The notes below the pieces were generated by a model. It had not been told where the DNA came from and did not search any database. It saw only the letters and a program-made list of their open reading frames with translations. The position numbers and the translations under genes were made by a program. From positions 25,668,001 to 25,732,000 of the forward strand of contig OX485809.1 of assembly GCA_950295325.1 (NCBI GenBank): DNA of 64,000 nt, read 5' to 3'. The first letter of the stretch is position 1, and each line of letters begins with the position of its first letter. The stretch is from Polytrichum commune (Eukaryota; Streptophyta; Polytrichopsida; Polytrichales; Polytrichaceae). Below are positions 22,267 through 63,406 of the stretch, one piece after another.

Positions 22267-22610
22267 ATGAGTTCCAATAAATGTAAAAAAAATCCAGTTC
22301 CATTATTGGCCCACATCTGACACATATTTTATGCCTTAAAGTGACTAACTACATATATACACAAGCGAAATTGGAATACAAAATTATATCTTGATAAGAA
22401 CATTAACACAACTCATTGGTTGAGATAGAAAAAAACAAGAAACTCGAAAATGGAAAACAACAACGTTCAACACTATCTCCCTTGGTGGTATTCAATGATG
22501 TGAGCCACACTATAAAGTTACCCATGTTAAACTGCACTATAGGCACGTCCACACTATATAATGGTGTATTGATGCAACCAAAAAGTCAAACATGAAGCAT
22601 GTTTTCCAAT

Positions 22611-22631
22611 CACTACTACAAAAACATGGCT
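22611..22631 (+). repeat. Left terminal inverted repeat of the CACTA element
   Basis: The 21 bases are the exact inverse of 39061-39081. The first five, CACTA, define the superfamily. Confidence 0.95.
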
Positions 22632-22639
22632 CATATGAC

Positions 22640-23180
22640 TGGACATATGACTACTTTGAGTTTACAAAACACTCAAATACTTTTTGACTTCCTAGTCGTT
22701 TCAGGTTAGTCTAATAAGGCATAGTCAAATGTTACGCAGTCTAAAAAACATGGTGTACATTAGACTATGGGCTGGGTATGTACATTAGACTATGCTTTTG
22801 AACTTTACATTAGACTATAGTCAGTCAATAAAACATTGATACATTAGACTACATGTAGTCGTAAGTAACAAAGTACATTAGACTACATGTAGTCAAAACA
22901 CATAGAGACATTATACTATGGGTAGTTAATAAAACACACATAAGTAGACTATGGATGGTCAAATAAACTACCGTGATGATTCATCTTGACAAACATTCTG
23001 AGACATAATAGACTACTCCTAGTCAATAAAACATAGTTTGTTGTGGCGTTGTTGACTACTTGATGTATAGTAATTGACTATATTATGGTAGGGTTTATTA
23101 GTCAATAAGAACATGACTTATATGGTTAATTGACTATCGTTTGTGTACGATATATGATGTTGGGCATAATTGACTAGTCG
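22640..23180. repeat. Left subterminal repeat array of the CACTA element
   Basis: Short units of the kind ACATTAGACTA, TAGTCAATAAAACA and TTGACTA recur a dozen or more times, in both orientations. The same words recur at 24960-25080 and in the right end at 38800-39060. In En/Spm elements such arrays are the binding sites of the TNPA-type protein. Here that role is inferred from position and family. Confidence 0.75.
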
Positions 23181-23475
23181 TTTGTCTACTTGGAGTGCAA
23201 AGAACTTCAATATCACAGCATCTTATAGTAAAAAAAGAGCATATTGCACTGGGTTCTTTTGCAAATTGACTAAGAAAAGATGGCAAGTTGTGTCTTTTGA
23301 ACCAATCAAACACATTCATAAGACTGAAATTAGTTTCCATTAGAGTCAATAAAACTTGCAACATGAGGCTAGGTAGACAAAAAAATGTATGTAAACCTTT
23401 ACTATATATGAAGTCATGATAGTTTACAATGAGTTCCCTAGTCCACCAAGAAGAACCAGATCCTATTTTCTCCAC
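23134..23475 (-). CDS. Unrecognised 113-codon frame inside the CACTA element
   Basis: This open frame on the minus strand lies just inside the left subterminal array. The peptide is rich in aromatic residues (WWTREL, NVFDWFKRHNLP) and Cys. I do not recognise a domain. It could be an exon of a second, opposite-strand element gene, or a chance frame. No promoter or splice evidence decides. Confidence 0.2.
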   Translation of the reverse strand: MEKIGSGSSWWTRELIVNYHDFIYSKGLHTFFCLPSLMLQVLLTLMETNFSLMNVFDWFKRHNLPSFLSQFAKEPSAICSFFTIRCCDIEVLCTPSRQTTSQLCPTSYIVHKR

Positions 23476-24089
23476 AAAATTGGTGCAAATTGAGAGTCTT
23501 TCATCCGTACTTGTGGAGGATTCCCCGCAAGGTTTGGATATTGCAACTTCGCATCTTGTACCTACACTTTGTTTACCAAAACACTAAAACATCCCTCTGG
23601 AATTTCATCTCCGTTGTAGTTGTCACTTGGACAACCTGCAATTTGTCCTTGAGCAACTAAACTAAAATTCGGATCCATTATATCCACACCTGCACACCCC
23701 TTCCACTGCATACATCCACAAACAAATCACATGTTAGTTTCAATTGAACATTCTCTTCCAATGTATTTGAGCAATTGGTATTCAAACACTCGAAACAACC
23801 CAGCTGATTCTCTTTCTGCCTTTCTCTCAAACTAGAAGACAAACATCAATATGAATTAGCACGGCCAGAATTACAAAGTATACAAAAGTATATGGGTTTA
23901 TATAGAGAGCCTTCCATTTTATGAGCTATCTATTGAGCAGCTGTATTTGAATAGTGTGTGATTGAATGAACTATCTATTGAGCAGTTGTAGGTGATTTGT
24001 AGGAGGAGCTTCTGCACGTTTGGAAAAAGAGGAGCAAAGTGAAGAATCCTAGAGGAAAAATGACACCTAACAAAAGAAAATCACATGTA

Positions 24090-24720
24090 GATTACATTTG
24101 GAATGATTTTTGGTCTTGCCTCAAACCCTTGCCTGCCTCTTGAAGTTCTTTGAGATGATTTCTGCTCTTGCCTCAAACCCTTGCATGCTCTTGCTTCAAA
24201 CCCTTGCCTTGCTTGCTTGATTGTATGTCCTCAAACCCTATCCACCCTTAATTTTTCCTTGTCTGATTGTATGTCCTTAAACCCTTGCCTGCCTTGCCTG
24301 ATTGTATGTTCAACTCTTGTTTGAGATGATTTCTGGTTTGTCTTATTGAAACCCACAATCTAAAACCCACAATCTAAAACCCACAATCTAAAACCCTTAG
24401 AACAACCACTTAGAAACCTTGTCTCAAACCCTTGTCTCAAACCACTTCAGATCTCAAACCCTTGTCTCAAACCCTTGCTTGCTTGAGATGATTTCTGATG
24501 ATGTCTCAAACCCTTGTCTAAAACCCTTAGACTCAAACCCTTGCTTGCTTGAGATGATTTCTGATGATGTCTAAAACCCTTAGACTCAAACCCTTGCTTG
24601 CTTGAGATGATTTCTGAAACTATTGTTTGAGATTATTTCTGCTATCTTGTTGAAACTCAAACCCTTGTCTAAAATCCTCAAACTACCACTTAGAAACCTT
24701 CAATAGGAAACCCTCACTTA
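24090..24720. repeat. Minisatellite-like tract in the CACTA element
   Basis: Interleaved units recur: TCAAACCCTTGCTTGCTTGA, GAGATGATTTCTG, and three tandem copies of AAACCCACAATCT. A second, shorter tract (24770-24900) repeats TTGCATTCCTTG and CACTTGCAATACATC. It lies upstream of the transposase gene, so it may be promoter or 5' leader. It is non-coding. Confidence 0.75.
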
Positions 24721-25225
24721 CAAACTTTCACTAGGAAACCCACAATTGTCCACCCTTACTGTTCCTCACTGCATTCTTGGATTCTTGCATCCGATTCTTG
24801 TATCCGATTCTTGCATTCCTTGCTTCACTTGCAATACATCTTGCATTTCTTACTTCACTTGCAATACATCCTTGCATTCCTTGTTCCACTTGTTTCACTG
24901 GCCTTTCCCGCCTCCATAGAACCATGTTCCCGCCTTTTCTTTAAACGTTCAAATTTTAAATAACCTATGTAGTCAATAAGTTACCTTTTGACTCACAATA
25001 TGTGACATCCAGTCAATAAAAATATATTTATAAGCACCTCTGTGACTTATGTAGTCAATTAAGCACCTATTGACTAACCTTAGTGTACATGGCAAAGACC
25101 TATGTATTGCAATATCCTACATGGCAAATAATGTTTTAATTAATTTTGTGGCATACTAATATGTATATTAGCATAATGTATCAATATAATTATTATGGTA
25201 TTATTTAATAATTGTTACAGCAAAC

Positions 25226-25426
25226 ATGGTGGAAGGGGAACTTGATCCCAACACTATGGAGGTTGCCCTTTGTGCTAGAGAAGAACTACAAGCAAATCGT
25301 CTTAAGCTGCATGAATATCGTTGTCCATGCAACAAATGTCATGGTTCTCAAGTGCTCAACCGAACGACGATACGAGCACATCTCCGAAAGTTCAAGCGTG
25401 ATGAATTCTTCACACAATCAATTCTG
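25226..25426 (+). CDS. CACTA transposase exon 1, transposase-associated zinc-binding domain
   Basis: This 67-codon exon starts at an ATG (25226). It carries a C-x-C-x2-C cluster (residues 33, 35 and 38) followed by a RAHLRKF block, the pattern of the transposase-associated domain found at the N-terminus of plant CACTA TNP2 proteins (Transpos_assoc type). It ends at a GT donor (25427) in phase 0; the next exon starts at 25542 after a 115-bp intron ending TAG. A CAG stands just before the start region (25218-25220), so a further upstream exon is possible. The domain is thought to help DNA or partner binding; that is family knowledge and not shown here. Confidence 0.65.
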
Positions 25427-25541
25427 GTGAATTTTTATTTATTCATGTAATGTTGATAGTTGGATCAATTTCATTGTTTGCAACATAATGTAGATAACAT
25501 GGACATCAAAGCTTGATGTTTTGCATTTATGTATGGTGTAG

Positions 25542-26132
25542 GATAAACATCACCCACAAGTGAAAAAATCAATGAACTTGGTATTAAAGGCTTTTCTTAG
25601 GGAAAGCTTTCCCAAGCAAGAAATGTCAGCTTCATTTGTACCTAAGGCCATAACCCAATTGGTCAATTTTGACGTGGGAAAGAACTATGGCCAATGGCCT
25701 ACTCTACCAATCCCACGGATGACCCCCTTCACATGGTGGAACCGTCAATGGGAAATTAGAATATCCACATTTCCGTACATGGGTTGGGGTCTATTTACAC
25801 TTCAAAATTTGGAAGCAGAAGAAGAATTGATTCCATTTACGGGGCCTTGCTACACAACCAACCAATACAAGAAGATGCAAGGTTATTTTCTAAGAATAAA
25901 ATGCTATGCATTGAATGCGGAAAAAACATTTTATATTGATGGGGATGTGGAAAAAGGGAATGTTGCAGGCTATATCAATAGCTCTATTGATAGGCGTGAG
26001 GAGATTGAGAATGTTATTTGGGAATATCATGATGTGGATCCTAGACCATGGAACAAGAAAAAATGGGGATATGTAATGACTAGGTCAACTAGGCCTATCA
26101 AAGCAGGAGAAGAACTATTTGCATACTATAAA
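25542..26132 (+). CDS. SET/PR-like methyltransferase domain exon within the CACTA transposase gene
   Basis: A 197-codon exon, open throughout, reads as a SET-type domain at residues about 70-197. It has an entry block YMGWGLFTL (GxG-like, residues 79-87), EEELIPFTG (93-101), a cofactor/knot block GNVAGYINSS (139-148), a NVIWEYHD strand (157-164), and a closing block RPIKAGEELFAYYK (184-197) with the conserved E-E-L and Tyr. The usual N-H-S-C is N-S-S here, as in PR-type and other divergent SET domains, so catalysis is uncertain. No Cys-rich pre- or post-SET region is seen. Bounded by phase-0 introns (25427-25541 and 26133-26265), it is a symmetric exon that keeps frame with both neighbours. 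SET domains methylate lysines, commonly on histones. The fusion to a transposase is inferred from frame and splice sites. Confidence 0.7.
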
Positions 26133-26265
26133 GTAAAATTTTAAGACTTTGAGGTTTGCAATGGACCAAATAACCTTTTTTTACTATAAATTTCAAAACA
26201 TTTTATTTTTGTTTTGGTTGACATGAGAACTTTACACTTTATTATTTAATTTCAAAATTTGGCAG

Positions 26266-26893
26266 GGACCGGATCCCGAGTTGGCGCCATTGGGTTGTGA
26301 TCCTTATTCACTGTCAAATCATGAATATCCCCATACATTGGGTCGTCATGGCAATCGAATTCAAGCACCTTGTACAGGTTCATTCAATAAAAGCTTAGAT
26401 CCTGAAACTGAGTTGCATCGCATGTGTAATGAAGCATTTATCCGCTATGACGAAGTCCATGGGAATAGCTCACGCGAAGATGACATCCCTGATGAGGTGG
26501 AAAATGATGAGGATGGGCATACATTGGACTCAGGAGATCCTGTGGTGGACCCCAATTTGGATGAATTACTGAAGTGGGCTAACACTCCTTTGTATCCAGG
26601 GAGTAAAGTGAAGCTCTTACAAGCAGTGTTGCTTATTTTTAATACATGCACAGTGCATGGTACTACGAATGGCCATGTAGATGAGTTATTAACTCTCCTT
26701 TCTGAGGATATATTGGAGCCGGGCAATTTGTTGCCGAAATCAAGATATGAAGCCAAAAAATTTCTAAGAAACCTTGGATTGTCCTATGACTCTATACACG
26801 CTTGCGAAAATGGATGCATATTGTATCGAGGGGAGCACAAGGATCTTGACAAATGCTCAAAGTGCGATTGCAGCCGATATGTAAAAGGGTCGT
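26266..26893 (+). pseudogene. CACTA TNP2 transposase, 5' part (interrupted)
   Basis: The exon begins after a CAG acceptor (26263-26265) and runs open for about 209 codons into the LTR insertion. After an acidic linker (EDDIPDEVENDEDGH) come LPKSRYEAKKFLRNLGLSY, then a CENGCILYRGEHKDLDKC block ending at about 26870. That Cys pattern (C-x3-C, LYR, C-x2-C) marks the start of the Transposase_21 (TNP2) domain. The frame enters the LTR at 26894 and stops there. Coding resumes at 37695 in the same phase once the insert and one GTCGT copy are discounted. The protein would cut the ends of the element. Confidence 0.85.
26889..26893. repeat. Left 5-bp target duplication of the LTR element (GTCGT)
   Basis: GTCGT stands immediately before the left LTR and again at 37690-37694 immediately after the right one. 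This proves insertion into the TNP2 exon. Confidence 0.95.
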
Positions 26894-28686
26894 TGTGAGG
26901 CCAAACCCCCCACCCTTAAGCGTCCGTAGTCCGAGTAGTGGGTTTGGGCTCACATTCCTCCGCGGTATTGGATTTGGACTTGGATGAGTCCATAGTGCAA
27001 GGTTCACCCTTCAAGTGGTCTTGGATTCAACTTTGGTCTTTGCTTCCTTTGTCTTGCCATCGCGAGAGTGCTCCACATTCTCCATTAAGTTGTGCACGTG
27101 GTTTATTTTTAAAGAGAGGATGCAAGTGTTAAAAAAAAACACTATTCTCTATAGTCAATCTCAAATACATTTACTTGTGAAAGCCACACATAACACTAAC
27201 TAGCATAATGTAACTAACTACTTGTCTATGAGCTAATTAGGTAGGCTATCTACTAAGCTCCTTCATGAACCCATCTCTTTACTTTCTAATTACATAAACC
27301 TAGCTCCTTCATAAACCTAGCTCCTTCATAAACCCAGCTCCTTCATAAACCCAGCTTCTTAGCTTCTAACTAAACAAACCCAGCTCCTTCATAAACCCAG
27401 ATCCTTCATAAACCCAGCTCTTTACTTTCTAACTAAACAAACCCAGCTCCTTCATAAACCCAGCTCCTTCATGAACCCACAACTTTGTAGTTGTAATCCC
27501 CAACTACCTCACTAATTATTCAAGCCCTTAACTAATCTTCCTACCTAATTTCCCTAACAACCCCTTTCTAATCACACAATTCTTCTCTAATCCTAAAATC
27601 CTAAAATCCTAGAGAGGAGAGGGGGAGAGAGAATTTCCTAACTTCACTAAGACTAACTAATCCACACAAGTATATTTTTGCACTCATCACAACATCAAGT
27701 GCTCAACTCTTAAACATAGAACTTGCAACCACGTGTATTCAAAACATGAACTTTAAGTACCACAAATTGGAATCATGAATTAACTTTAAAATCCTTCACG
27801 TCAACACTAATTCTACCAAGAGGTCAAGCCCTCTTCAAGGCTAACAAGCCTTGGCTCTCAAACTAAAAACTAAGCACACACGTGTGCTCCAATATGGCTT
27901 CCCACACCCACACTTATAACTCGTGGGGTGCCTTGGAGCACAAAGGAAAGAGAGGATGAGTGAGGGAAGAATGAGGGATTATATAGTAAGCTTGAGGGGG
28001 TGAGCACCCTCAAGGCTCACGATAAGCCCTTGAGATTTCCTCCTACTTAGTAGGCGCCAATCCTATCTTCTAAGCCTTCCTCCCTCAAATGATCAACAAG
28101 GATCCTAATTCGAACATTTAACTAGCCTTGGCTTTCTACCTACCACACTTTACCAAACTTGGGATGCTTCAACCCAAACTTAGCCTCCTTCGCTTTCCGC
28201 CGCCATAACTTTCTCCCCTTACTTTCCCAAATCGTCGCTCACCACTTAATTCAAACCACGATGCTTAACTCGTGATTTGATTGGTGCTTTGAGAATTTGC
28301 TTATCCTCCACCTTGCATTCTTCCTTGGGCCTTCCCCATTAAGTGGCCATGATGAGGTGGTCCACTTGTGCGCTCCATGTGATCCTCCATTCATCCCAAT
28401 TCGAATGCACTTGCCTCTTGAGTCACTTTGGTTGTCTCCATCCATTTGTACTAGCCTACTCACTAACTACTCAATCCAAGTTCTCCTTACCTATCCTCAT
28501 TCACTCAAATCCTTCCGAAGGTAAAAACACAATAACAACTCACATCCTAGCCTCTTACAACATGGTACTTCTAAGACTAACATTTCACTCTTTTTATATT
28601 TTTGTGAAGTAACATGCTACTTCAAAGTGCATCAACTAACGTTTCAAGGGTCTAAGACTAAATGTGGGCACCCTTTTGGGCTCACA
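26894..28686 (-). repeat. LTR (3' LTR of the element)
   Basis: It starts TGTGAGGCCAAA and ends GGGCTCACA on the + strand. It contains a TATATAAT on the minus strand (27978-27985), fitting transcription leftward, and a short tandem block (27295-27480) of units like CCCAGCTCCTTCATAAA. Frames inside are chance. Confidence 0.95.
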
Positions 28687-28707
28687 TAATTGGCGACCAT
28701 CGGGGGA
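28687..28707 (+). other. Primer-binding-site-like motif at the 3' (left) inner end
   Basis: Directly after the left LTR the + strand reads TAATTGGCGACCATCGGGGG. TGGCGACCA would pair with a tRNA 3' end of the form TGGTCGCCA, as in some tRNA-Arg. This is the wrong end for a minus-strand element, where a polypurine tract is expected. See findings. Confidence 0.5.
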
Positions 28708-28747
28708 TGAATCCAAACATCTCTTGCTCCAAGGGTAAGTTGCCTAG

Positions 28748-31700
28748 TCAAGCTCGGTACTCCTTACATCTACTTCCCGATGTACGGGTAGGAAAGAGCT
28801 CACCATTCAACGTTTCCAATTGAATTGAATTATTAGGAAAGACCTCATAGACAAGGTAAGGTCCTAACCATACCGCATTGAATTTCGCCGGAAATTCAAG
28901 CTTTCGTGCGTCTTGAATCATGACCATCATTCCCGGTGTTAGGGCCCTTCTCTTATGTCGTTTGTCGAAAGTAATCTTTCTCCTTCTTTGGATTGCCTCA
29001 ATATGTTGAGCCGCCATTCTCCTCCCTTCGTCAAGTGCTTCCAAATCGGTTAGTCGATTTCGTAAGGATTGACTTTCGGTAAGTCTCGTACTCACGGCCA
29101 CCCTAAGTGACTCGACTTCATATTCGATTGGTAGTGTCGCTTCAAGACCATAGACTAAGGAAAATGGTGTAGCACGCGTAGTTACCTTATAGGTTGTACG
29201 GTATGCCCAAAGTGCCGCCGTTAGTTTCGTATCCCAATCCCGCTTCGAGTCTATAACCGTCTTGCGTAGTATACTCACCAAAATTCCGTTAACCCTTTCC
29301 GTTTGTCCATTGGTTTGTGGGTGGTAGGGAGTAGTCTTCCGGTGATCAATTTTAAATTTCTCTGTCATCTCTCGAATCAAGTCATTCAAAAAGTGAGTAC
29401 CCCTATCGCTTACTAGGATCTTCGGCACCCCGAACCGCGAAATTATGTTTTCGTACATAAATGTTGCCGCGTGTTCCGCCGTGTCGGTCTTCACCGCTTT
29501 GGCTTCCGCCCACTTGGTGAGGTACTCGGTTGCCACCACAATATATTTCATTCCTTTTGAAGATTGGGGATGGACCTCACCCACATAGTCGATGCCCCAT
29601 TTTTCGAAAGGAATTAAGGGTAATGATACATGTAAAGGCATCTCCATTCTAAGGTCGTTTCGGGCATACCGTTGGCAAGCGTCGCATTTCCTTACATAGT
29701 CATGGGCGTCCTTAAATAGTGTAGGCCAAAAGTAGCCCGCTCTAAGTATTTTTTGCCCGGTGAGTTGACCCGAGAAGTGACCGCCGCAAGCGCTATCGTG
29801 GCAAGCGATTAAAATCGCTTCAACCTCCGTTTTTGACACGCATCGTCGTAAAATACCATCGGACCCCCTTCTAAACAACCTATGGCCCACTACAACAAAT
29901 TGCCTACTATTTACCCTCACCTTCCTTCTCTCTTCTTTTGTCCACTCTTTGGGCAACTTGTGGGTTGTTAGAAATTCCACTATGCCCGCATACCACTCCG
30001 GTGTAGAAGTGACCACAAAGAGGCTATCATCTACTAACATATCATTTACCGGATTTTTTCCTATCTCCTCCGACAACCTAGACAAGTGGTCCGCTTGTAA
30101 ATGCATACGACCCGGTTTATATTCCACCGTGTAGTCGAATTCTTCTAATAACAAAACCCACCTAGCTAACCTACCACTTAACTCCGCCTTGTTAATTAGA
30201 TACTTGATAGCCATGTGGTCAACAAAAAATACAACCGGGTTGCACATGAGGTAATGCCTAAACTTTTTAACGGAAAACACCATGGCTAGGCACTCCCTCT
30301 CCGTTGTAGAGTAGTTTCTTTCGGCGGGGGTCAATTGCTTACTCGCATAAGCTATAGGTTGATCCTTCTCTTTTTCTCCCGTTGCTTGACAAAGCGCACT
30401 CCCTATTGCCACATTACTAGCATCACAATAGACGTGAAAAGGTTTACCCCAATTGGGTGGTATCAACACCGGATAGGTGCTCAACCTATCCCGCAATTCC
30501 TCAAAGGCTTTTTGACAAGCATCCGTCCACTCGAATTTGACATCCTTTTTGAGCAAATGGGTAATGGGCACCGCTATCTTTGAAAAATTAGGAATAAGTT
30601 CCCGGTACCATCCCACATGTCCTAACAACTTAGAGATCCCCTTGGAATTGGTTGGAGTTGCCAAGTCGCTTATGGCCGCAATCTTATCCGGATCGGGTTC
30701 TCTACCTTTCTCACTAACAACATAACCCAACAACACTCCCTTATTCACTCCCAAAAATGTCTTATCCGGGTTCAATGCTAACCTCATCTTCCTACACCTA
30801 ACCAATGCCTCCCTAACACAATGTAGGTGATCATCCACATTTCTTTGTGTGCTAAAATCGTCCACAAAGACGGTCATGGATTTGAACAACAAGTCGGTGA
30901 AGATATACATTACTAATCGTTGGAAAGTAGCCGGGGCATTACATAACCCAAATGGCATCACTACCCACACAAAAGTACCCCAAGGTGTAGTAAAAGCCGT
31001 TTTATGGATATCTTGGAGGGCTATGGAAATTTGATTATAACCCGCATACCCATCCATAAAGGTATATCGCGAATGACCTCCAACCTCCTCAAGCAACAAG
31101 GTGATAAAAGGTAAGGGGAAGTGATCCTTTTGTGTGCACGAATTCAATTTCCTATAGTCGACACAAACCCTTAATTTCCCATTTTTTTTCTTTACTAAGA
31201 CCATAGGAGAAACCCAATCCGTGATTTCCACCGGCTTGATAAACCCGGCCTTCAATAACCTTTCCAATTCCGCTTTCACCAACAATTGCAATTGAGGATT
31301 CATCCTCCTCTCCTTTTGTCTAATTGGCCTCGCCCCCGGAATTAAAGGAATCCGGTGCTCTACCATTTCCCTAGGAATTCCCTTAAGCTCATCGTAGGAC
31401 CATGCAAAAGTATCACTAAACTCATCCACCAAATTGCTATACTCCCTAACCTCTTTCTCCCCCAATTTGGAGCCCATCTTCATTTGTCGGGTTTTTCCAT
31501 TCTTTAATTTCACATCCACGTACCGCCAATCCGCTTCCGACACATGTGCTTGTTCCTCTTTGTTCCGATACCAATCGGAAGGCACATTGGGGTAATCTTT
31601 CACATCTTGACCTACAACTATCCCCGTAGACGTGGTCTTGAAATGTAAAGGCTCCTCCAATTTCGATGACTCAATAATCACATCCTCCTCTTGAGTCCCA

Positions 31701-34700
31701 TCTACATGAATTAAACTAACCTCACCCTCTTCCACGTCATCTACCCAAGGTGTTAACCCACCGCTAACCCACTCTTCCTCGGTGAGCACCTCACATGGCT
31801 CCAACAATGAGCCCTCTCCTAAACTAACACTAGGAAATTCACTCCCTAAGCCTACTTGGTGAAATGTAACCATTACATCAACCTCGGACTCGGGGTACTC
31901 CCTTAGCCATTGGGCATAATCCCCATTATCCCCATAATTGTAAAAATTAGGACCTAGACTTCCCGAGCCCGAATCTATAACAACCCTTTGACCTTCGGGA
32001 TGGACGACTCCCACCAATGCCTTGCCAATCTCATTCTCGTTTAAGTCATCAATTTCCTTCTCCAATGGCAAATACATCTCCTTCTTCATCCATCCTTCTA
32101 ATGAACCAATGGACACTATGACCCTATTACCCTCCGGACCATAAGTGATGGATGGTTTAGGTCCACCCCAATTGACCATAGCATTCGCCATCCGCAACCA
32201 AGGCCTACCTAGCAAAATGGGGAAGGTGTCCTTGTTGGAGTGCATTTTAATGACATGGAAGGTGACCAAGTACTCCTCACCTCCCGTAGTCATTCTACAA
32301 TCCTTGATCATCCCCAAAGGCGTAGTCGAACTTTGATTTGCCATATTTATGACCAAAGGTGAAGGCCCCGTGAGTCCAAGTCCCAATTTTTTCATAGTAT
32401 CCTCCGGTAGTATATTTAGACTACTCCCTCCGTCGACTAGCACATTAGGAACCACCTTATCTACTATAACAACTTCTATTTCTATAGCTTTCACGTCTCT
32501 TCCACCTTGTGATTGGATCCTAGCGGCTATTTTAGCTTTCACCTTCCTCATCCTCTTGTGTACCGGCATTCCCTCCTTTAATGTTTTCCTTGCCGTGGGT
32601 GAAATTTCCAATAGTTGGCCGAAAGTAATATCCGCCTTGAGTGTACTAAGGTCCGCCCACAAGTCGTACCCGGTAGATCTTTCCACCTTAGAATTACCCA
32701 CTACGTCGAATTCGTCTACGGGAACCCCCGGTCCTTCCCATTCACCCACATCGCTATTATCCAAGTCATGTACCGCATTAGTCCTCTCCCTATCTTGTAA
32801 AATTATATTTTCCCTCTCCACATCCTTAGTAGCTCTTCTAGCTACCCTATCCAACTCGGAGAGATTAATCTCTTCATCCGAAGAGTAATTTCCTTGCTCT
32901 CCTATTCCTACCTCCAACGGGGCATCCCCTCTCCTAGCCCTAGTAGTTACCGCTAGTGCAGGTGCTTCTTCAACCACACCCTTACCCTTCACTAACTCAT
33001 ATGTAATAGCATTGGTGTGAGGAGGCCATTGACTTTGCTCCTCTCCAATTCTCGTTGGGAGAGGAAGCATGTCATCACATGTGGCCTCCAACACTCCATC
33101 CATGAACCTAACATCTTGGGAGTTAGATGGTCCCGGATCCGTTGGAGGCGCTTGTCTCCCGTTACTACCATTAGGTGGAACTCCTTGTCTATTTTGTATT
33201 GGAATGTAACCGGTTGTAGTTTGCAAGCCCGCCGGTGGATGAAAAGTTTGCCTAGCATTACTATGGTCATAGTATAAGTTAGGTGGCCTAAGTTCATTGG
33301 CCGGTACTCCTTGTGGCCTAGCACCTCGCATATTATCCCTTGCTTGTTGTTGTGGATTAGCCACCGGGTAAGGGACATTAATTATTTTGTCCGGTTGGCG
33401 ACACGTATCCGAGGGATGACTTCCTCCACAATTGCTACAATTAAACTCTTGACCTTCGGACCAACATTGTCCTTGAGCGTGCCACCTTCCACAAAAGGGA
33501 TGAAATTCCTTCTTCTCTAAATTTTGGCCACCTTGCCCTCTAGGTTGTGGTCCTCTATTGCTTCCATTTCCATAGTGAGGTGGCGCTTGACCTCGTTGAT
33601 TTTGTTGAGGTGGGTTACCGTTTCCTCTTTGGTCACGGTTTTGTCCACTTCTACAAAATTGACGCGTGTGGCCCGGTTGGCCACATTGGACACACCATAA
33701 TCCGGAAGAATGCCTACCCGACTCAACCGGGGGTGGAGGCCCCGGTTGTTGACTCCGGATCATTAATGACATTTGATCCGTGAGGCTTTGCATTTGTTTT
33801 ATCATAGCCTCTTGGAATCCTAGTTGGCTAGCACCTAGTCTTCTCTCAACCTCCTCCAAGTGTGGATCCGTTCTAGGGGCCGGTAGTGCCAAAAGAGGTG
33901 CCGGTTCCCTAACCGCTAAAGGTCGGGGACCGGTGTCCACAATGGCATATGGAATTTGGTTCTCATACTTAGCGGGTTCTACCGCTACCACCCTAGGGCG
34001 TATGGGGATGAATTGTGGGATCAATTCATCCTCCCTTCTCCATAGCCTTTCGTGATCTTTATCCAAGTTTTCAATATCTCTAGCCGCACGCTTGGCATCC
34101 GCCAAGGTCAAGGGATTCCTTTCTAGAACACCCCTAATAGTTCCGGACTTAAAAAACCCTTGAATGAAAAATTGCTTTAGCGTGTCGTCGTTGAGCATGG
34201 TACCCACAAATCTAGTGCACACTAAATCAAACCTCCTAATGTAAGCCGAAATTTCTTTCTCCCTTCCTTGCTTCAATGACGACAATGCCCTTAATGCGGT
34301 ACTTTGACCCACTTCCGGCCTAAATTCGTTAAGAAACTCCCTTTGTAATTGTTCCCATCCCCTAAAATGTCCCTCGGCATGATCCCGATACCATTCATAG
34401 GCTTCCCCCTCTAGAGTGGTAGGAAACCACACTAACCAATAACCCGGGTCGGTTATGAGGAAGCTAGCCAACCGTTCGATATACCGTTCCATGTGCCGAG
34501 AGGGGTCCTCATCCTTGGTCCCATAAAATTTAGGGAGATGAGATGGCATATCCATCGCCGCTAAATTTTGTGGAACCACAATTGGTAGGCCTCTTGGCCT
34601 AACCAATGGGTCTATTGGAGGTATAGGAGGTATGGGCGGAATTGGGGGTATGGGTGGTGGATCCATCCCCCGTTCCTCGGCCATGGTGACCGGTGAACTA

Positions 34701-34987
34701 TTCAACAATCCCCTATCAACTTCTACCGGGAATTCTTCTCTAAGTGTGTAATTTTCCGAAGAAGTTTCACCACTCAATTTGGAGGGAGTGATCTCCTCTT
34801 CAAGTTGAGCTCCAAGTTCTAAGGTGTCTAGAATTGACCTAGTCCTAGGTTCGACGTTCAAACAACTCTCTATTCTAACATTATCTTGTTCTAATCTATC
34901 ACTGATTTTAGAGGACCGCCTCTTTCGAGTAGATTTCTCTAGTCCTACTATCAAACTTGGTTTTTGTGAGCGAGTCCTACCTTGCAT
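28748..34987 (-). CDS. Gag-Pol polyprotein of the Ty3/gypsy element
   Basis: This is an uninterrupted frame of 2079 residues. Gag core is at about 150-310 (EAYEWYRDHAEGHFRGW). A zinc knuckle C-x2-C-x4-H-x4-C lies at 432-445, and a second Cys/His cluster at 517-529. The aspartic protease has VDGGSSLNIL at 851-860. Reverse transcriptase spans about 1230-1420, with FMDGYAGYNQI and the catalytic FVDD at 1374-1377. RNase H spans about 1515-1640 (YCDAS, ERECLAM, QADHLSR). Integrase has an HHCC finger (H1730, H1737, C1768, C1771) and D1800, D1861 and E1897, spaced D-60-D-35-E. All catalytic residues I can check are present. The start ATG lies 909 bp inside the right LTR. No frameshift separates gag and pol. 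The protein copies the RNA into DNA and inserts it. Confidence 0.95.
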   Translation of the reverse strand: MQGRTRSQKPSLIVGLEKSTRKRRSSKISDRLEQDNVRIESCLNVEPRTRSILDTLELGAQLEEEITPSKLSGETSSENYTLREEFPVEVDRGLLNSSPVTMAEERGMDPPPIPPIPPIPPIPPIDPLVRPRGLPIVVPQNLAAMDMPSHLPKFYGTKDEDPSRHMERYIERLASFLITDPGYWLVWFPTTLEGEAYEWYRDHAEGHFRGWEQLQREFLNEFRPEVGQSTALRALSSLKQGREKEISAYIRRFDLVCTRFVGTMLNDDTLKQFFIQGFFKSGTIRGVLERNPLTLADAKRAARDIENLDKDHERLWRREDELIPQFIPIRPRVVAVEPAKYENQIPYAIVDTGPRPLAVREPAPLLALPAPRTDPHLEEVERRLGASQLGFQEAMIKQMQSLTDQMSLMIRSQQPGPPPPVESGRHSSGLWCVQCGQPGHTRQFCRSGQNRDQRGNGNPPQQNQRGQAPPHYGNGSNRGPQPRGQGGQNLEKKEFHPFCGRWHAQGQCWSEGQEFNCSNCGGSHPSDTCRQPDKIINVPYPVANPQQQARDNMRGARPQGVPANELRPPNLYYDHSNARQTFHPPAGLQTTTGYIPIQNRQGVPPNGSNGRQAPPTDPGPSNSQDVRFMDGVLEATCDDMLPLPTRIGEEQSQWPPHTNAITYELVKGKGVVEEAPALAVTTRARRGDAPLEVGIGEQGNYSSDEEINLSELDRVARRATKDVERENIILQDRERTNAVHDLDNSDVGEWEGPGVPVDEFDVVGNSKVERSTGYDLWADLSTLKADITFGQLLEISPTARKTLKEGMPVHKRMRKVKAKIAARIQSQGGRDVKAIEIEVVIVDKVVPNVLVDGGSSLNILPEDTMKKLGLGLTGPSPLVINMANQSSTTPLGMIKDCRMTTGGEEYLVTFHVIKMHSNKDTFPILLGRPWLRMANAMVNWGGPKPSITYGPEGNRVIVSIGSLEGWMKKEMYLPLEKEIDDLNENEIGKALVGVVHPEGQRVVIDSGSGSLGPNFYNYGDNGDYAQWLREYPESEVDVMVTFHQVGLGSEFPSVSLGEGSLLEPCEVLTEEEWVSGGLTPWVDDVEEGEVSLIHVDGTQEEDVIIESSKLEEPLHFKTTSTGIVVGQDVKDYPNVPSDWYRNKEEQAHVSEADWRYVDVKLKNGKTRQMKMGSKLGEKEVREYSNLVDEFSDTFAWSYDELKGIPREMVEHRIPLIPGARPIRQKERRMNPQLQLLVKAELERLLKAGFIKPVEITDWVSPMVLVKKKNGKLRVCVDYRKLNSCTQKDHFPLPFITLLLEEVGGHSRYTFMDGYAGYNQISIALQDIHKTAFTTPWGTFVWVVMPFGLCNAPATFQRLVMYIFTDLLFKSMTVFVDDFSTQRNVDDHLHCVREALVRCRKMRLALNPDKTFLGVNKGVLLGYVVSEKGREPDPDKIAAISDLATPTNSKGISKLLGHVGWYRELIPNFSKIAVPITHLLKKDVKFEWTDACQKAFEELRDRLSTYPVLIPPNWGKPFHVYCDASNVAIGSALCQATGEKEKDQPIAYASKQLTPAERNYSTTERECLAMVFSVKKFRHYLMCNPVVFFVDHMAIKYLINKAELSGRLARWVLLLEEFDYTVEYKPGRMHLQADHLSRLSEEIGKNPVNDMLVDDSLFVVTSTPEWYAGIVEFLTTHKLPKEWTKEERRKVRVNSRQFVVVGHRLFRRGSDGILRRCVSKTEVEAILIACHDSACGGHFSGQLTGQKILRAGYFWPTLFKDAHDYVRKCDACQRYARNDLRMEMPLHVSLPLIPFEKWGIDYVGEVHPQSSKGMKYIVVATEYLTKWAEAKAVKTDTAEHAATFMYENIISRFGVPKILVSDRGTHFLNDLIREMTEKFKIDHRKTTPYHPQTNGQTERVNGILVSILRKTVIDSKRDWDTKLTAALWAYRTTYKVTTRATPFSLVYGLEATLPIEYEVESLRVAVSTRLTESQSLRNRLTDLEALDEGRRMAAQHIEAIQRRRKITFDKRHKRRALTPGMMVMIQDARKLEFPAKFNAVWLGPYLVYEVFPNNSIQLETLNGELFPTRTSGSRCKEYRA

Positions 34988-35896
34988 TCCATAAGAATCG
35001 ATCGACCCTCACTTGACCACACATAATCCTAGCAATTCCCCTCTTAATATTTTCATTTGTCTTGGTGTGGTTATAATTTTTTTAGGAGGTGAGGAAAAGA
35101 ACCTGCAAGCCCACTTAGGTGAAAGAATCCCAATAGGGGATAGGCATGTTCATGTTAATTTTTTGGTTAAGTCGGAGCATCACCTCCGCACCTTCCCGCA
35201 AATTAACACTCACCACAATACCGATTGTGAGGGGGTGACCTTCCGAGTAGATTATGTTAAAAGTCGAGGCTTCACCCTTCAACTTCTCACACCATCCACA
35301 ATTCGGGAATTACCCTCTACAACGGATAACAACAATCACGAGTACAAAAGACATTCCTTAATTAGTTAATGAGTTCACTTTGAAGAAATAAACATACCTT
35401 GAGCAATCGCATCCCCCTGTGAGTTAGCACTCCCCTCAATCGTGACTCAATGTAACAACACCATAAACTTTGTGAAATATTAATTTAATCTAGAGCATGA
35501 AATGACAACTCCCAAAACTTTGAGACTCACCCCGAGGTGAGTGTCAAAGTTCAATGTCCTAAGGTGAATTTACCCTCTAATGTTTTAATGAGCTACTCGG
35601 TTATAGGTTCCTTTTAAGTTCTTAGCAAATCCCCAAAAAGGTTGAGGACGTACCTTCGCCGCGCTCCTTCCTCAAAAATGAATTTGCGTAATTGACAATG
35701 CAATTCATTCCAAGGAATAGTTGAAATACAATGAATTCAAATGTAACCCAAAGAGAGAATACTTACCGAGTTTCGGGTGCTCCTTCCCTTCTCTCAAGTT
35801 TGTGTCTCCAATTTTTCCTAGTTGCCTCCAAGTCTCCTAGTCGCCTCCAAGTCTTGTAACTACCTTCCGCTTCGCTCCCGGCGGACGCACCAATTA
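34988..35896 (-). other. 5' untranslated leader of the Ty3/gypsy element
   Basis: About 909 bp lie between the right LTR and the Gag start codon. I see no conserved frame in it. It probably carries packaging and leader signals, by position only. Confidence 0.7.
35877..35896 (-). other. Primer binding site at the 5' (right) inner end
   Basis: Reading leftward from the right LTR, the sequence is TAATTGGTGCGTCCGCCGGG. TGG followed by an acceptor-like stretch is what a tRNA 3' CCA end would pair with, four bases inside the LTR. The donor tRNA would end in GGACGCACCA, perhaps a tRNA-Arg, but I cannot check this. The position fits the direction of the polyprotein. Confidence 0.6.
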
Positions 35897-37689
35897 TGTG
35901 AGGCCAAACCCCCCACCCTTAAGCGTCCGTAGTCCGAGTAGTGGGTTTGGGCTCACATTCCTCCGCGGTATTGGATTTGGACTTGGATGAGTCCATAGTG
36001 CAAGGTTCACCCTTCAAGTGGTCTTGGATTCAACTTTGGTCTTTGCTTCCTTTGTCTTGCCATCGCGAGAGTGCTCCACATTCTCCATTAAGTTGTGCAC
36101 GTGGTTTATTTTTAAAGAGAGGATGCAAGTGTTAAAAAAAAACACTATTCTCTATAGTCAATCTCAAATACATTTACTTGTGAAAGCCACACATAACACT
36201 AACTAGCATAATGTAACTAACTACTTGTCTATGAGCTAATTAGGTAGGCTATCTACTAAGCTCCTTCATGAACCCATCTCTTTACTTTCTAATTACATAA
36301 ACCTAGCTCCTTCATAAACCTAGCTCCTTCATAAACCCAGCTCCTTCATAAACCCAGCTTCTTAGCTTCTAACTAAACAAACCCAGCTCCTTCATAAACC
36401 CAGATCCTTCATAAACCCAGCTCTTTACTTTCTAACTAAACAAACCCAGCTCCTTCATAAACCCAGCTCCTTCATGAACCCACAACTTTGTAGTTGTAAT
36501 CCCCAACTACCTCACTAATTATTCAAGCCCTTAACTAATCTTCCTACCTAATTTCCCTAACAACCCCTTTCTAATCACACAATTCTTCTCTAATCCTAAA
36601 ATCCTAAAATCCTAGAGAGGAGAGGGGGAGAGAGAATTTCCTAACTTCACTAAGACTAACTAATCCACACAAGTATATTTTTGCACTCATCACAACATCA
36701 AGTGCTCAACTCTTAAACATAGAACTTGCAACCACGTGTATTCAAAACATGAACTTTAAGTACCACAAATTGGAATCATGAATTAACTTTAAAATCCTTC
36801 ACGTCAACACTAATTCTACCAAGAGGTCAAGCCCTCTTCAAGGCTAACAAGCCTTGGCTCTCAAACTAAAAACTAAGCACACACGTGTGCTCCAATATGG
36901 CTTCCCACACCCACACTTATAACTCGTGGGGTGCCTTGGAGCACAAAGGAAAGAGAGGATGAGTGAGGGAAGAATGAGGGATTATATAGTAAGCTTGAGG
37001 GGGTGAGCACCCTCAAGGCTCACGATAAGCCCTTGAGATTTCCTCCTACTTAGTAGGCGCCAATCCTATCTTCTAAGCCTTCCTCCCTCAAATGATCAAC
37101 AAGGATCCTAATTCGAACATTTAACTAGCCTTGGCTTTCTACCTACCACACTTTACCAAACTTGGGATGCTTCAACCCAAACTTAGCCTCCTTCGCTTTC
37201 CGCCGCCATAACTTTCTCCCCTTACTTTCCCAAATCGTCGCTCACCACTTAATTCAAACCACGATGCTTAACTCGTGATTTGATTGGTGCTTTGAGAATT
37301 TGCTTATCCTCCACCTTGCATTCTTCCTTGGGCCTTCCCCATTAAGTGGCCATGATGAGGTGGTCCACTTGTGCGCTCCATGTGATCCTCCATTCATCCC
37401 AATTCGAATGCACTTGCCTCTTGAGTCACTTTGGTTGTCTCCATCCATTTGTACTAGCCTACTCACTAACTACTCAATCCAAGTTCTCCTTACCTATCCT
37501 CATTCACTCAAATCCTTCCGAAGGTAAAAACACAATAACAACTCACATCCTAGCCTCTTACAACATGGTACTTCTAAGACTAACATTTCACTCTTTTTAT
37601 ATTTTTGTGAAGTAACATGCTACTTCAAAGTGCATCAACTAACGTTTCAAGGGTCTAAGACTAAATGTGGGCACCCTTTTGGGCTCACA
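35897..37689 (-). repeat. LTR (5' LTR of the element)
   Basis: It matches the left LTR base for base where compared, at a constant offset of 9003. It would drive leftward transcription, with a TATATAAT on the minus strand at 36981-36988. Confidence 0.95.
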
Positions 37690-38594
37690 GTCGTCCACAG
37701 TCCCGCGAAAAGTACTTCGCCACTTCCCTTTGATTCCAAGACTTAAACGAATGTACCGTTGCAAATCCATAGCTGGGCTTATGCAACATCATGCACATAA
37801 TCGACCAAAAGATACATGATCTCTTGAAACAAGTGCAGAAAATGAGAATTTGGTGCGATCGGTAGCAGATTCCAAGGCTTGGAAGCACATTGACAGTGTG
37901 TGGCCGGATTTTGCTGTTGAGACCCGTAACATACGATTGGGTCTAGCTACAGACGGGATGAACCCATTTGGTGATTTCAACTTGAAACATTCTACATGGC
38001 CAGTGGTACTTTTAAACTATAATCTACCTCCATGGCTTGTGACAAAAAGATTTTTCGTCATGTTGGCTCTCATCATTTATGGGAAGATGCGGTTAAGGAT
38101 CATAACTTTGATGTTTATTTAGCACCTGTCATTGAAGAATTTCTCCAGCTATGGCAAGGAGTGTGGGCATATGATGTTGCTGCAATTAATGGTAACCATC
38201 GCTTCTTGTTGCGAGCTGTTTTGATGTGGACCATACATGATTTCCCAGCCCTAGGTCTTGTTTCAGGGTGTGTAACCAAGGGTTACAAGGCTTGTCCAAA
38301 TTGCGGGCCAAATACAATTGCAAGGTACTCGAAACCTATGCGGAAAATGATCTATACCGGTCATAGACGCCTACTCGCTCGCCCACATCCTTACTGAAAA
38401 AAGAAAAGCTGGTTCAATGGCAAGATAGAAAAAAGAACAAAACCACGAGCACTCTTGACAGACGAGATTATAAAAAATGCTACAGAGCGGGATGAATGGA
38501 TTGCTAAAGGGGGAAAACCTGGAGCCATAAATGACCCTGTACACTTAGAGGACAATTCAGATTACCTTGGAATTTCATCTTCATATGAAGAATG
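37690..38594 (+). pseudogene. CACTA TNP2 transposase, 3' part (interrupted and mutated)
   Basis: After the second GTCGT the frame continues from 26893. It gives RKVLRHFPLIPRLKRMYRC, then WKHIDSVWPDF, RNIRLGLATDGMNPFGDF and WPVVLLNYNLPPWL, all hallmark TNP2 blocks. In another frame come YLAPVIEEFLQLWQGVWAYD, LLRAVLMWTIHDFPALGLVSG and CPNCGPNT. Damage is clear: a TGA at 37817-37819 inside the domain, a frameshift near 38085-38100, and a TGA at 38395-38397, after which the frame continues to about 38594. The C-terminal rest of a usual TNP2 protein is missing. This copy cannot make a full transposase even without the LTR insertion. Confidence 0.85.
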
Positions 38595-38799
38595 AATGTC
38601 ATACCGGCTTGTGTATCTCATACGTACAAAGTAGTTATTACAAGGTGCACATAGCCATGCTTCTAATTCAATTTGTATTTGATATGCCCAAACTTTATGT
38701 AGGATCATGTGCCATGCATGCATACAAATTACTAAGTAAAAAAAACAACATATGCAATAGATAGGTTGCTTGCTACCAATAATGTACGAACCCTCAAGT
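38595..38799. other. Remaining CACTA sequence, no gene
   Basis: AT-rich DNA between the TNP2 remnant and the right subterminal repeats. No frame is supported. Confidence 0.5.
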
Positions 38800-39060
38800 T
38801 TTTAAGACCGTAGTTAGTCTAAATGTGTGATTGGGTCTTGAGTCAAAAAAACATATTCAATGCATAGTTTGCTCGCTCCCAATAATGTATGCCTCCTCTG
38901 ACTTTGTGGACTATGTTTAGTCAATAAGTGCGATTGGATTGTTGAGTCAAAAAAACCAAGGGTGATTTGGGACTATGGTCAGTCACAAAAACCACCCTGA
39001 CTATGAGGTCGGGCTACCTCAGTTAAATAAACATGGATAGTCAATTGTGCCGAGACATTA
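38800..39060. repeat. Right subterminal repeat array of the CACTA element
   Basis: Repeated AGTCAATAA, GGACTATGGTCAGTCA and TGAGTCAAAAAAAC-type words match the left array in both orientations. It stands directly inside the right terminal repeat. Confidence 0.7.
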
Positions 39061-39081
39061 AGCCATGTTTTTGTAGTAGTG
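39061..39081 (-). repeat. Right terminal inverted repeat of the CACTA element
   Basis: It ends TTTTTGTAGTAGTG and is followed by AAT, the same 3 bases that precede the left end. Confidence 0.95.
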
Positions 39082-39367
39082 AATGCACACTAGCGTATAT
39101 AAAAATTGTATCTGCAACGTCCTTTGTCTCACCAATGGCACCCAAAAACGTGCACTATCCAATAAACATACGGTCGAAGACACACTACTCCCCAAACGCA
39201 CCTCCAAGAATGTCAAACAACCCACCATAACCTCAAAACCTCATATGATTACATTGCTAACTTCATACTATGGGCATAGTTGGACTTCATTGGCTCCAAC
39301 TTCATGACATCTAAGGTAGATGTGCCCTTATTTGGCATTTGATCTTAAACACCTATTTTTGAGTTGG

Positions 39368-62449: not shown

Positions 62450-63406
62450 CTACATGATTCAAGTGCGTCATATGAAATACTATATGAAATACACGTCACT
62501 ACCACAAACCGTGCGTTCCTCATCAAAAAAACCCCGTTAGAACAAGCATGGAAATCCAACCCATCATACCCCAACCTCCCAGAAAATGCCAAAATAAAAT
62601 CCCAAACGTACCTAGATAAACTATACATACACGGAATCACAACATTAGAACAAATCCAAAACAAAGACACCACATCCATACTAAACCCCGAAGAATTCCA
62701 AACCATCTACAAAACCAAGTCTAAAACTATCAAAGATGCATTACAACAAACCATACTATTATTTCCCCCCACACTACCTCTTATACCACACACAAACCAC
62801 CCCCCAACATCACAACAAATACCCACAAATAACATACACGCTCCCAATCCCCCACCACAACCAATCCTAGGACAAACAATCCACGCCATAACTAATGAAA
62901 AAGTCGCCATTAGAAAAGACAAATGGGGCACACAAGCCATCAAGAAAACATACCTATGCCAATGGCAATCCACGCAAGGAAACACACAACAATGGCGCAC
63001 AGAAGAGGACCTACTACACCCAGACAACATCCTACTAGAACACAACCTACTACTCGTAATACAATACCAAAACAAAAAGAAGACACACAATGCCACCCAA
63101 ACATACATGGACTACCTCAAACACACCCAAACAAAAGACACAAAATACATACGTCCCCCTCTACAAATCACCAATCTCAAAACATACACGCAAGAATGTA
63201 ACCCCGATAGGGACATTATCTGTCGCGCACCTCTCCATGAGGAGTGCCCGAAACACCATGGGCACAAGGGGGACCCAAGAGTGACACCCGGGACTTGTGG
63301 CGCCGTTGGTGAGAGGACCCAAGTGATCCTAGTGTGGGCGAGGGCCCCGGGCGTTGGGAACGCCTCCCACCCACGGAGATTAGGAGGCATGAGGGTAAGG
63401 CCATAA
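62450..63406 (+). CDS. Unidentified A/C-rich open frame, partial, 318 codons without early ATG
   Basis: One frame stays open from a TAA at 62447 to a stop at 63404-63406, but its first ATG is at 63107. From about 62490 to 63210 the + strand has very little G or T, and third positions are mostly A or C (ACA, CAA, CTA, ATA, AAC). The peptide looks protein-like: TTNRAFLIKKTPLEQAWK, YLDKLYIHGITTLEQI, KKTYLCQWQS, WRTEEDLLHPDNILLEHN. The GITTLEQI region recalls the linker after the reverse transcriptase of some LINEs. The Y-x-x-x-W then W-x-x-E-E-x-L pattern recalls a chromo-like fold. Both are weak impressions. It is probably the 3' end of a transposable-element gene or a captured piece with foreign codon use. 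After about 63215 the composition turns GC-rich and the frame is probably chance. Confidence 0.4.
   Translation, partial: LHDSSASYEILYEIHVTTTNRAFLIKKTPLEQAWKSNPSYPNLPENAKIKSQTYLDKLYIHGITTLEQIQNKDTTSILNPEEFQTIYKTKSKTIKDALQQTILLFPPTLPLIPHTNHPPTSQQIPTNNIHAPNPPPQPILGQTIHAITNEKVAIRKDKWGTQAIKKTYLCQWQSTQGNTQQWRTEEDLLHPDNILLEHNLLLVIQYQNKKKTHNATQTYMDYLKHTQTKDTKYIRPPLQITNLKTYTQECNPDRDIICRAPLHEECPKHHGHKGDPRVTPGTCGAVGERTQVILVWARAPGVGNASHPRRLGGMRVRP

Follow-up and report, generated by a model that had tools for sequence, protein, structure and literature searches.

A putative captured SET-domain exon in the first intron of a plant CACTA transposase gene and its probable use as an alternative terminal exon

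SET genes have been recorded in DNA transposons of oomycetes, and some plant transposons are known to encode proteins that act against silencing. SET genes are present in HarbingerS and MuDR elements of Phytophthora (Kojima and Jurka 2014, as cited in PMC12730594), and proto-Helentron-Pi of Phytophthora infestans has a short, separate, intronless SET reading frame of ~153 amino acids similar to Clr4 (PMC4067079). In Arabidopsis, Vandal VANC and Kaonashi-ULP1 are precedents for a transposon protein that counters silencing of its own family, and for the retention of a captured host domain (PMC13317346). In maize En/Spm, alternative splicing yields a short regulator, TnpA, and the transposase TnpD, and TnpA reactivates the methylated promoter of the element (PMC1636069). 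A survey of CACTA domain make-up describes architecture Types 1–4, with four basic domains in open reading frame 1 (ORF1) and Transposase_24 and Peptidase_C48 as extras in ORF2; Orbi_VP1, SANT, and ribosomal_S8e_like are mentioned in passing (PMC8978399). Here we describe a CACTA (EnSpm) element within a 64,000-nucleotide stretch of contig 7 (the window) of a 408-Mb genome, whose source, judged by its elements, is presumably a plant. A SET-domain exon lies within the transposase gene of this element and recurs in related copies of the same genome.

A preliminary description of the window, made by a model from the sequence, had remarked that no standard CACTA architecture of this kind is known. 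The remark agrees with the survey cited above, in which no listed architecture includes SET. Neither “SET” nor “methyltransferase” occurs as a whole word in the main text of a 2026 review on the capture of genes by plant transposons (PMC13317346). No SET-bearing CACTA or SET-bearing plant DNA transposon was met in our literature search, the reach of which did not include subscription papers and Repbase Reports.

The SET exon (25542–26144, plus strand; 200 codons followed by TAA) is preceded by exon 1 (25226–25426, plus strand), which has 67 codons, ends in phase 0, and resembles the transposase-associated zinc-type domain. The phase-0 intron between them (25427–25541, plus strand) starts with GT and ends with AG. 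In an alignment of 20 rows, the exceptions are L010, whose acceptor is altered, and L023, whose exon 1 is ~1 kb further away. Exon 3, which also starts in phase 0, is the TNP2 transposase exon; its first part lies at 26266–26893 (plus strand). All three open stretches and their GT and AG positions were thus found where the preliminary description had placed them. Its assignment of exon 1 to the transposase-associated domain holds as a resemblance, while the Pfam score (PF13963, 22.9 bits) stays under the cut-off of 27.7 bits; exon 1 of a distant copy, L031, scored 21.3 bits. All 20 further loci fetched from the subfamily of the window have a match to exon 1, as do two SET-less relatives. A U-box match of L031 exon 1, slightly over the cut-off at 23.1 bits, was taken as a coincidence of the zinc-domain pattern.

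That the gene carrying the SET exon belongs to a CACTA element is seen from both the transposase and the element ends. The TNP2 domain had been placed within 26266–26893, a segment in which no Pfam match was found; it is located at 37820–38397, past a 10.8-kb gypsy insertion, and is divided between two frames. These overlapping frames, in the continuation of exon 3 (37695–38397, plus strand), match Transposase_21 (PF02992) with 112 and 97 bits. The element spans 22611–39081 (plus strand) and is bounded by perfect 18-bp terminal inverted repeats, CACTACTACAAAAACATG, at 22611–22628 (plus strand) and, with no mismatches, at 39064–39081 (minus strand). With up to 3 mismatches allowed, two matches to this repeat were found in the window, versus 0.09 expected. 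Homology to other copies stops at the expected place on the right, and the window element is flanked by a 3-bp target-site duplication, AAT (22608–22610 and 39082–39084). L031, from subfamily C, has a Transposase_21 match of 246.6 bits, DUF4218 at 124.6 bits, and DUF4216 at 29.1 bits (cut-off 30.6); its SET match (39.0 bits) is placed between exon 1 and TNP2. Apart from SET, these are components of the transposase gene of plant CACTAs.

A census of the genome yielded at least 150 SET matches (150 of 200 SET candidates were scored). After merging of fragments, these correspond to at least 142 loci, 22 at 77–100% identity, 95 at 40–60%, and 25 weaker. Of the 20 loci fetched with their flanks from the subfamily of the window, in the same genome, 18 have the order exon 1, SET, exon 3, TNP2, which is more than chance would give. 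L015 is broken off within exon 3; L028 is broken off within SET in the 10 kb fetched, and a fragment of SET and a TNP2 site are listed a few kb beyond. Conversely, 72 of the best 150 TNP2 sites (among 527 candidates) had a same-strand SET locus no more than 15 kb upstream, in 65 cases at a distance of 1.1–1.7 kb, and none of these sites had such a SET locus on the opposite strand. The 25 weakest SET loci all lack a listed TNP2 site downstream. The genome-wide matches and the recurring exon order rule out a chance reading frame or a single-copy capture. Type E SET frames (L038:1-909, L040:182-898, and G000:C5:1795602-1796111; 326, 239, and 326 codons) are very similar to each other, are 37–38% identical to the window exon, and have no listed TNP2 site downstream; the L038 frame has a proline-rich stretch. 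They may belong to another element or a host gene.

The structure of SET-less relatives indicates where the exon is inserted. In L061 and L062, the same exon 1 is followed by a short phase-0 intron (GT to AG, by eye) and then by the TNP2 exon; in L063, the zinc-type domain and TNP2 are joined in a single open frame. Exon 1 and exon 3 are therefore able to join in frame without SET, and it is this intron that SET occupies. A tree built from 14 TNP2 sequences groups L061 and L062 with SET-bearing subfamily D (support 99/98; D is represented by a fragment of 186 residues, and the grouping was named after the tree had been seen), within a group of B, C, and D (92/96), while A is separate (100/100). 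A constraint holding the SET-bearing rows together was rejected (p-AU, from the approximately unbiased test, 0.008). The tree suggests that SET was lost in the L061/L062 lineage, and the simplest reading of the history would be one capture, followed by a loss.

We assign a probability of roughly 0.6 to the following reading. A SET lysine-methyltransferase-like exon would have been captured in the first intron of a plant CACTA transposase gene, between the zinc-domain and TNP2 exons, before this CACTA clade divided into its present subfamilies, and would have been retained by selection in several of them, most likely as an alternative terminal exon. Splicing of exon 1 to SET would give a protein of ~265 residues, consisting of the N-terminal domain of the transposase and SET and ending there, while splicing of exon 1 to exon 3 would give an ordinary transposase. 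At the sequence level, the phases and the stop are compatible with two such products. The N-terminal domain, which is probably DNA-binding, would bring the short protein to the element's own sequences or ends, where it would modify histones or occupy chromatin, most likely countering host silencing or regulating the element's own expression. The sequence itself shows that the exon exists, where it lies, its phases and stop, how it recurs, that it is constrained, and its predicted fold; that two transcripts are made, and that the short protein is targeted to DNA, acts as a methyltransferase, and serves this purpose, is inferred. More tentatively, and at somewhat less than even odds, the clade may encode a sequence-guided histone methyltransferase, the choice of 3′ exon giving either transposase or a zinc-domain–SET effector that would occupy the ends of its own element and keep the family from being silenced, in an arrangement older than the subfamilies and lost in at least one of them.

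The identification of the middle exon as a SET domain, already made in the preliminary description, is upheld by Pfam, by profile comparison with solved structures, and by the predicted fold. Residues 81–197 match Pfam SET with an E-value of 3e-10 (40.9 bits, cut-off 22.4), and single copies from subfamilies B, C, and D scored 41.0, 39.0, and 32.6 bits. Against solved structures, the window sequence alone gave a SET match with E 0.0012, the first 11 rows 1.7e-4, and a profile without distant SET rows 5e-7. A value of 1.3e-18 to MLL1 was reached with P0072, P0074, and P0075 included and is inflated by these three distant SET proteins (two so named by the source), which we take as cellular. All three are in alignment A3, consisting of the window exon and 56 of 76 listed proteins (57 rows), which was used for a second structure prediction; the first, from 11 rows, was discarded (predicted local distance difference test score, pLDDT, 33.5). 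The 57-row model has a SET fold, with a fold alignment that ends at model residue 197 and SET7/9 residue 336. A PR domain of the PRDM type, raised as an alternative, is not supported: PF21549 scored 16.2 bits versus a cut-off of 27, although PRDM9 does occur among the fold matches, at rank 46. In searches that covered no plant proteome and no plant genome besides this one, the donor of the exon was not found; the nearest solved SET domains (MLL/KMT2, SETD8, and SET7/9 type) name none. A search of viral contigs returned nothing.

Whether the short protein would act as an enzyme is a separate matter. A conserved but non-catalytic SET, which would bind chromatin or other proteins, or would be a copy that interferes with a methyltransferase of the host, is compatible with a terminal SET exon and concerns only the role of the short protein; we regard it as possible, although unlikely. 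In place of the Asn-His of the NH motif, the exon has N146-S147, invariant in 13 aligned rows. Hardly any chain follows the last tyrosine, hence there is no post-SET part, and Phe99 presumably stands at the position of the pocket tyrosine of many SET enzymes (placed by SET motifs). On the other side, glycines G81 and G83 of the GxG block and Y196 are invariant in the same 13 rows. PR-type SET domains, too, are not known to have the histidine of the NH motif. The family name SET is kept here, since fold and profile support it despite the N-S motif.

The way the SET exon ends bears on how it could be spliced. Among 49 tabulated copies, 48 have a readable end (L039 has none), and in 48 of 48 the frame stops 1–8 residues past the last SET tyrosine. 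Most other copies of subfamily A have TGA where the window has TAA (at 26142), and L018 extends three residues more; such conservation means that the TAA is no accident of the window copy. The preliminary description had instead treated SET as a symmetric internal exon, in phase 0 on both sides, of one zinc-domain–SET–TNP2 transposase with a built-in methyltransferase. The phases of both flanks and of the start of exon 3 allow such fusion, as does a GT in phase 0 that follows the last SET tyrosine, ahead of the stop, in 19 of 20 copies of A and 14 of 15 of B. However, no such GT is present in subfamilies C (0/6), D (0/5), and E (0/2), or 0 of 13 together. The second intron of that model (26133–26265, plus strand), whose 3′ end coincides with the exon 3 acceptor, has a weak donor, AAA/GTAAAA, without counterpart in C, D, and E. 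Plant splice donors usually have G at −1 and G at +5; not one of the A and B sites has either, while the exon 1 donor reads G/GTGAG in 14 of 20 rows. Where present, the GT belongs to the codon for valine in a widespread C-terminal sequence, Tyr-x-(Val/Leu)-Asn. A3 includes 53 transposon-type relatives from the protein database, of which 47 can be read to the end; Asn precedes the stop in 42 of these 47, 21 times after Val and 21 times after Leu, Ile, Trp, or Gly. As codons of the latter four cannot begin with GT, the terminal Asn is conserved regardless of whether a donor is possible. In the SET-less relatives, a single phase-0 intron appears to separate exon 1 from the TNP2 exon, which also argues against an internal SET exon. 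A stop past SET in every subfamily, and a phase-0 GT in only some, makes the second intron doubtful. The placement of SET in a CACTA transposase gene thus stands, while its fusion to the transposase as an internal exon is probably wrong, and we consider that model improbable.

Slightly less probable still is a regulated choice limited to subfamilies A and B, in which the weak donor would sometimes be used, giving both an exon 1–SET protein and a fused transposase, with separate proteins only in C and D. The phase-0 GT would fit, being retained in A and B by 33 copies out of 35, but is accounted for by the valine codon of the Tyr-x-Val-Asn-stop end, and the donor context is weak.

Selection on SET was assessed with 28 frames that run for 150 codons or more without a stop. 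The ratio of nonsynonymous to synonymous substitution (dN/dS) had a median of 0.25 for A versus B (usable pairs: 62/88), 0.22 within B (54/55), and 0.36 within C (10/10). Other between-group values, 0.13–0.22, come from only 1 to 5 unsaturated pairs each, silent sites being saturated in most (usable pairs: B–C 3/55, A–D 5/16, C–D 1/10). Within A, in comparisons with an older branch, L022, dN/dS was 0.22–0.26 for SET and 0.16–0.21 for exon 3; between L029 and L031 of subfamily C, it was 0.32 for SET and 0.26 for TNP2. Since the two sets of values are close, SET appears to be kept about as strictly as the transposase. Judged by these ratios, SET is kept by selection in several subfamilies, and the window's subfamily, A, with a median dN/dS of 0.82 (28 of 28 pairs), decayed after its last spread. 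A captured host fragment riding along without a function of its own, which the near-neutral SET of subfamily A, the SET-less lineage, and the ability of plant CACTAs to carry gene fragments (PMC8978399) might favor, is very improbable in view of the low A–B and within-B ratios, a constraint about equal to that on the transposase, and 28 long frames free of stops.

Several of these observations weigh against a selected, terminal SET exon with the role proposed above. No SET match was found at 78 of the best 150 TNP2 sites (such a site may hold an unscored or diverged SET exon), and TNP2 occurs alone in the SET-less L061/L062 lineage, so not every CACTA here needs SET. In A and B, the window's subfamily included, the GT permits in-frame inclusion. 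Within subfamily A, SET evolves almost neutrally. Finally, the N-S motif and the missing post-SET part mean that the domain may be catalytically dead.

The window copy itself is dead. A Ty3/gypsy retrotransposon (26894–37689, minus strand) interrupts exon 3, and the earlier limit of that exon, 26893, coincides with the start of its long terminal repeat (LTR). The LTRs (26894–28686 and 35897–37689) are identical over 1793 bases, the gag-pol frame (28748–35008, antisense to the CACTA exon) is open for 2086 codons, and a 5-base target duplication, GTCGT, is present at 26889–26893 and 37690–37694; the insertion is recent. Compared to the longer copies L018 and L022, ~2.2 kb are missing from the end of the transposase gene (deletion site at 38545–38792, plus strand). 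With this loss, the insertion, and the split TNP2 frame, the copy is hardly able to make transposase.

Further features were noted in the window. Numerous imperfect short-unit repeats (tctcaaacccttgcttgcttgag...), seen by eye at 24100–24700 in the left part of the CACTA element, are possibly subterminal repeats. A 149-codon open frame at 23134–23583 (minus strand), also within the element, matches no Pfam family over cut-off and is perhaps due to chance. A near-identical peptide stretch (RAPLHEECPKHHGHKGDP...), an interspersed repeat, is encoded at 62450–63406, near the window end, and at L030:6955-7260, on the right edge and adjoining flank of an element from subfamily C; a chromo-domain match of the window frame stays below threshold (13.2 versus 25.1 bits).

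Should the short protein be produced and prove active, the element would be a mobile one with a self-targeted histone-mark writer, a natural zinc-domain–SET protein. The escape of high-copy plant transposons from silencing would then become testable, with SET-bearing and SET-less families of one genome as built-in controls. The comparison with known systems places the locus as follows. L031 is like CACTA Types 1–4 in having Transposase_21 and DUF4218 over cut-off, with DUF4216 and the exon 1 domain just under. As in Spm, the element belongs to the CACTA superfamily and has a TNP2-type transposase; here, two-product splicing is proposed from sequence features, and, unlike in Spm, the short product would share the first exon of the transposase and end in SET. 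TnpA is not known to be a SET protein. VANC and Kaonashi-ULP1 differ in belonging to the Mutator-like element (MULE) superfamily, with Ulp1 rather than SET and a different protein. SETMAR/Metnase likewise combines SET with a transposase, but is a non-mobile primate host gene with a mariner fusion. Proto-Helentron-Pi is similar as a mobile element with a SET frame, but is rolling-circle. HarbingerS and MuDR are, like the element described here, DNA transposons with a SET methyltransferase gene; they belong to other superfamilies and have oomycete hosts, whereas the transposase here is TNP2 of CACTA.
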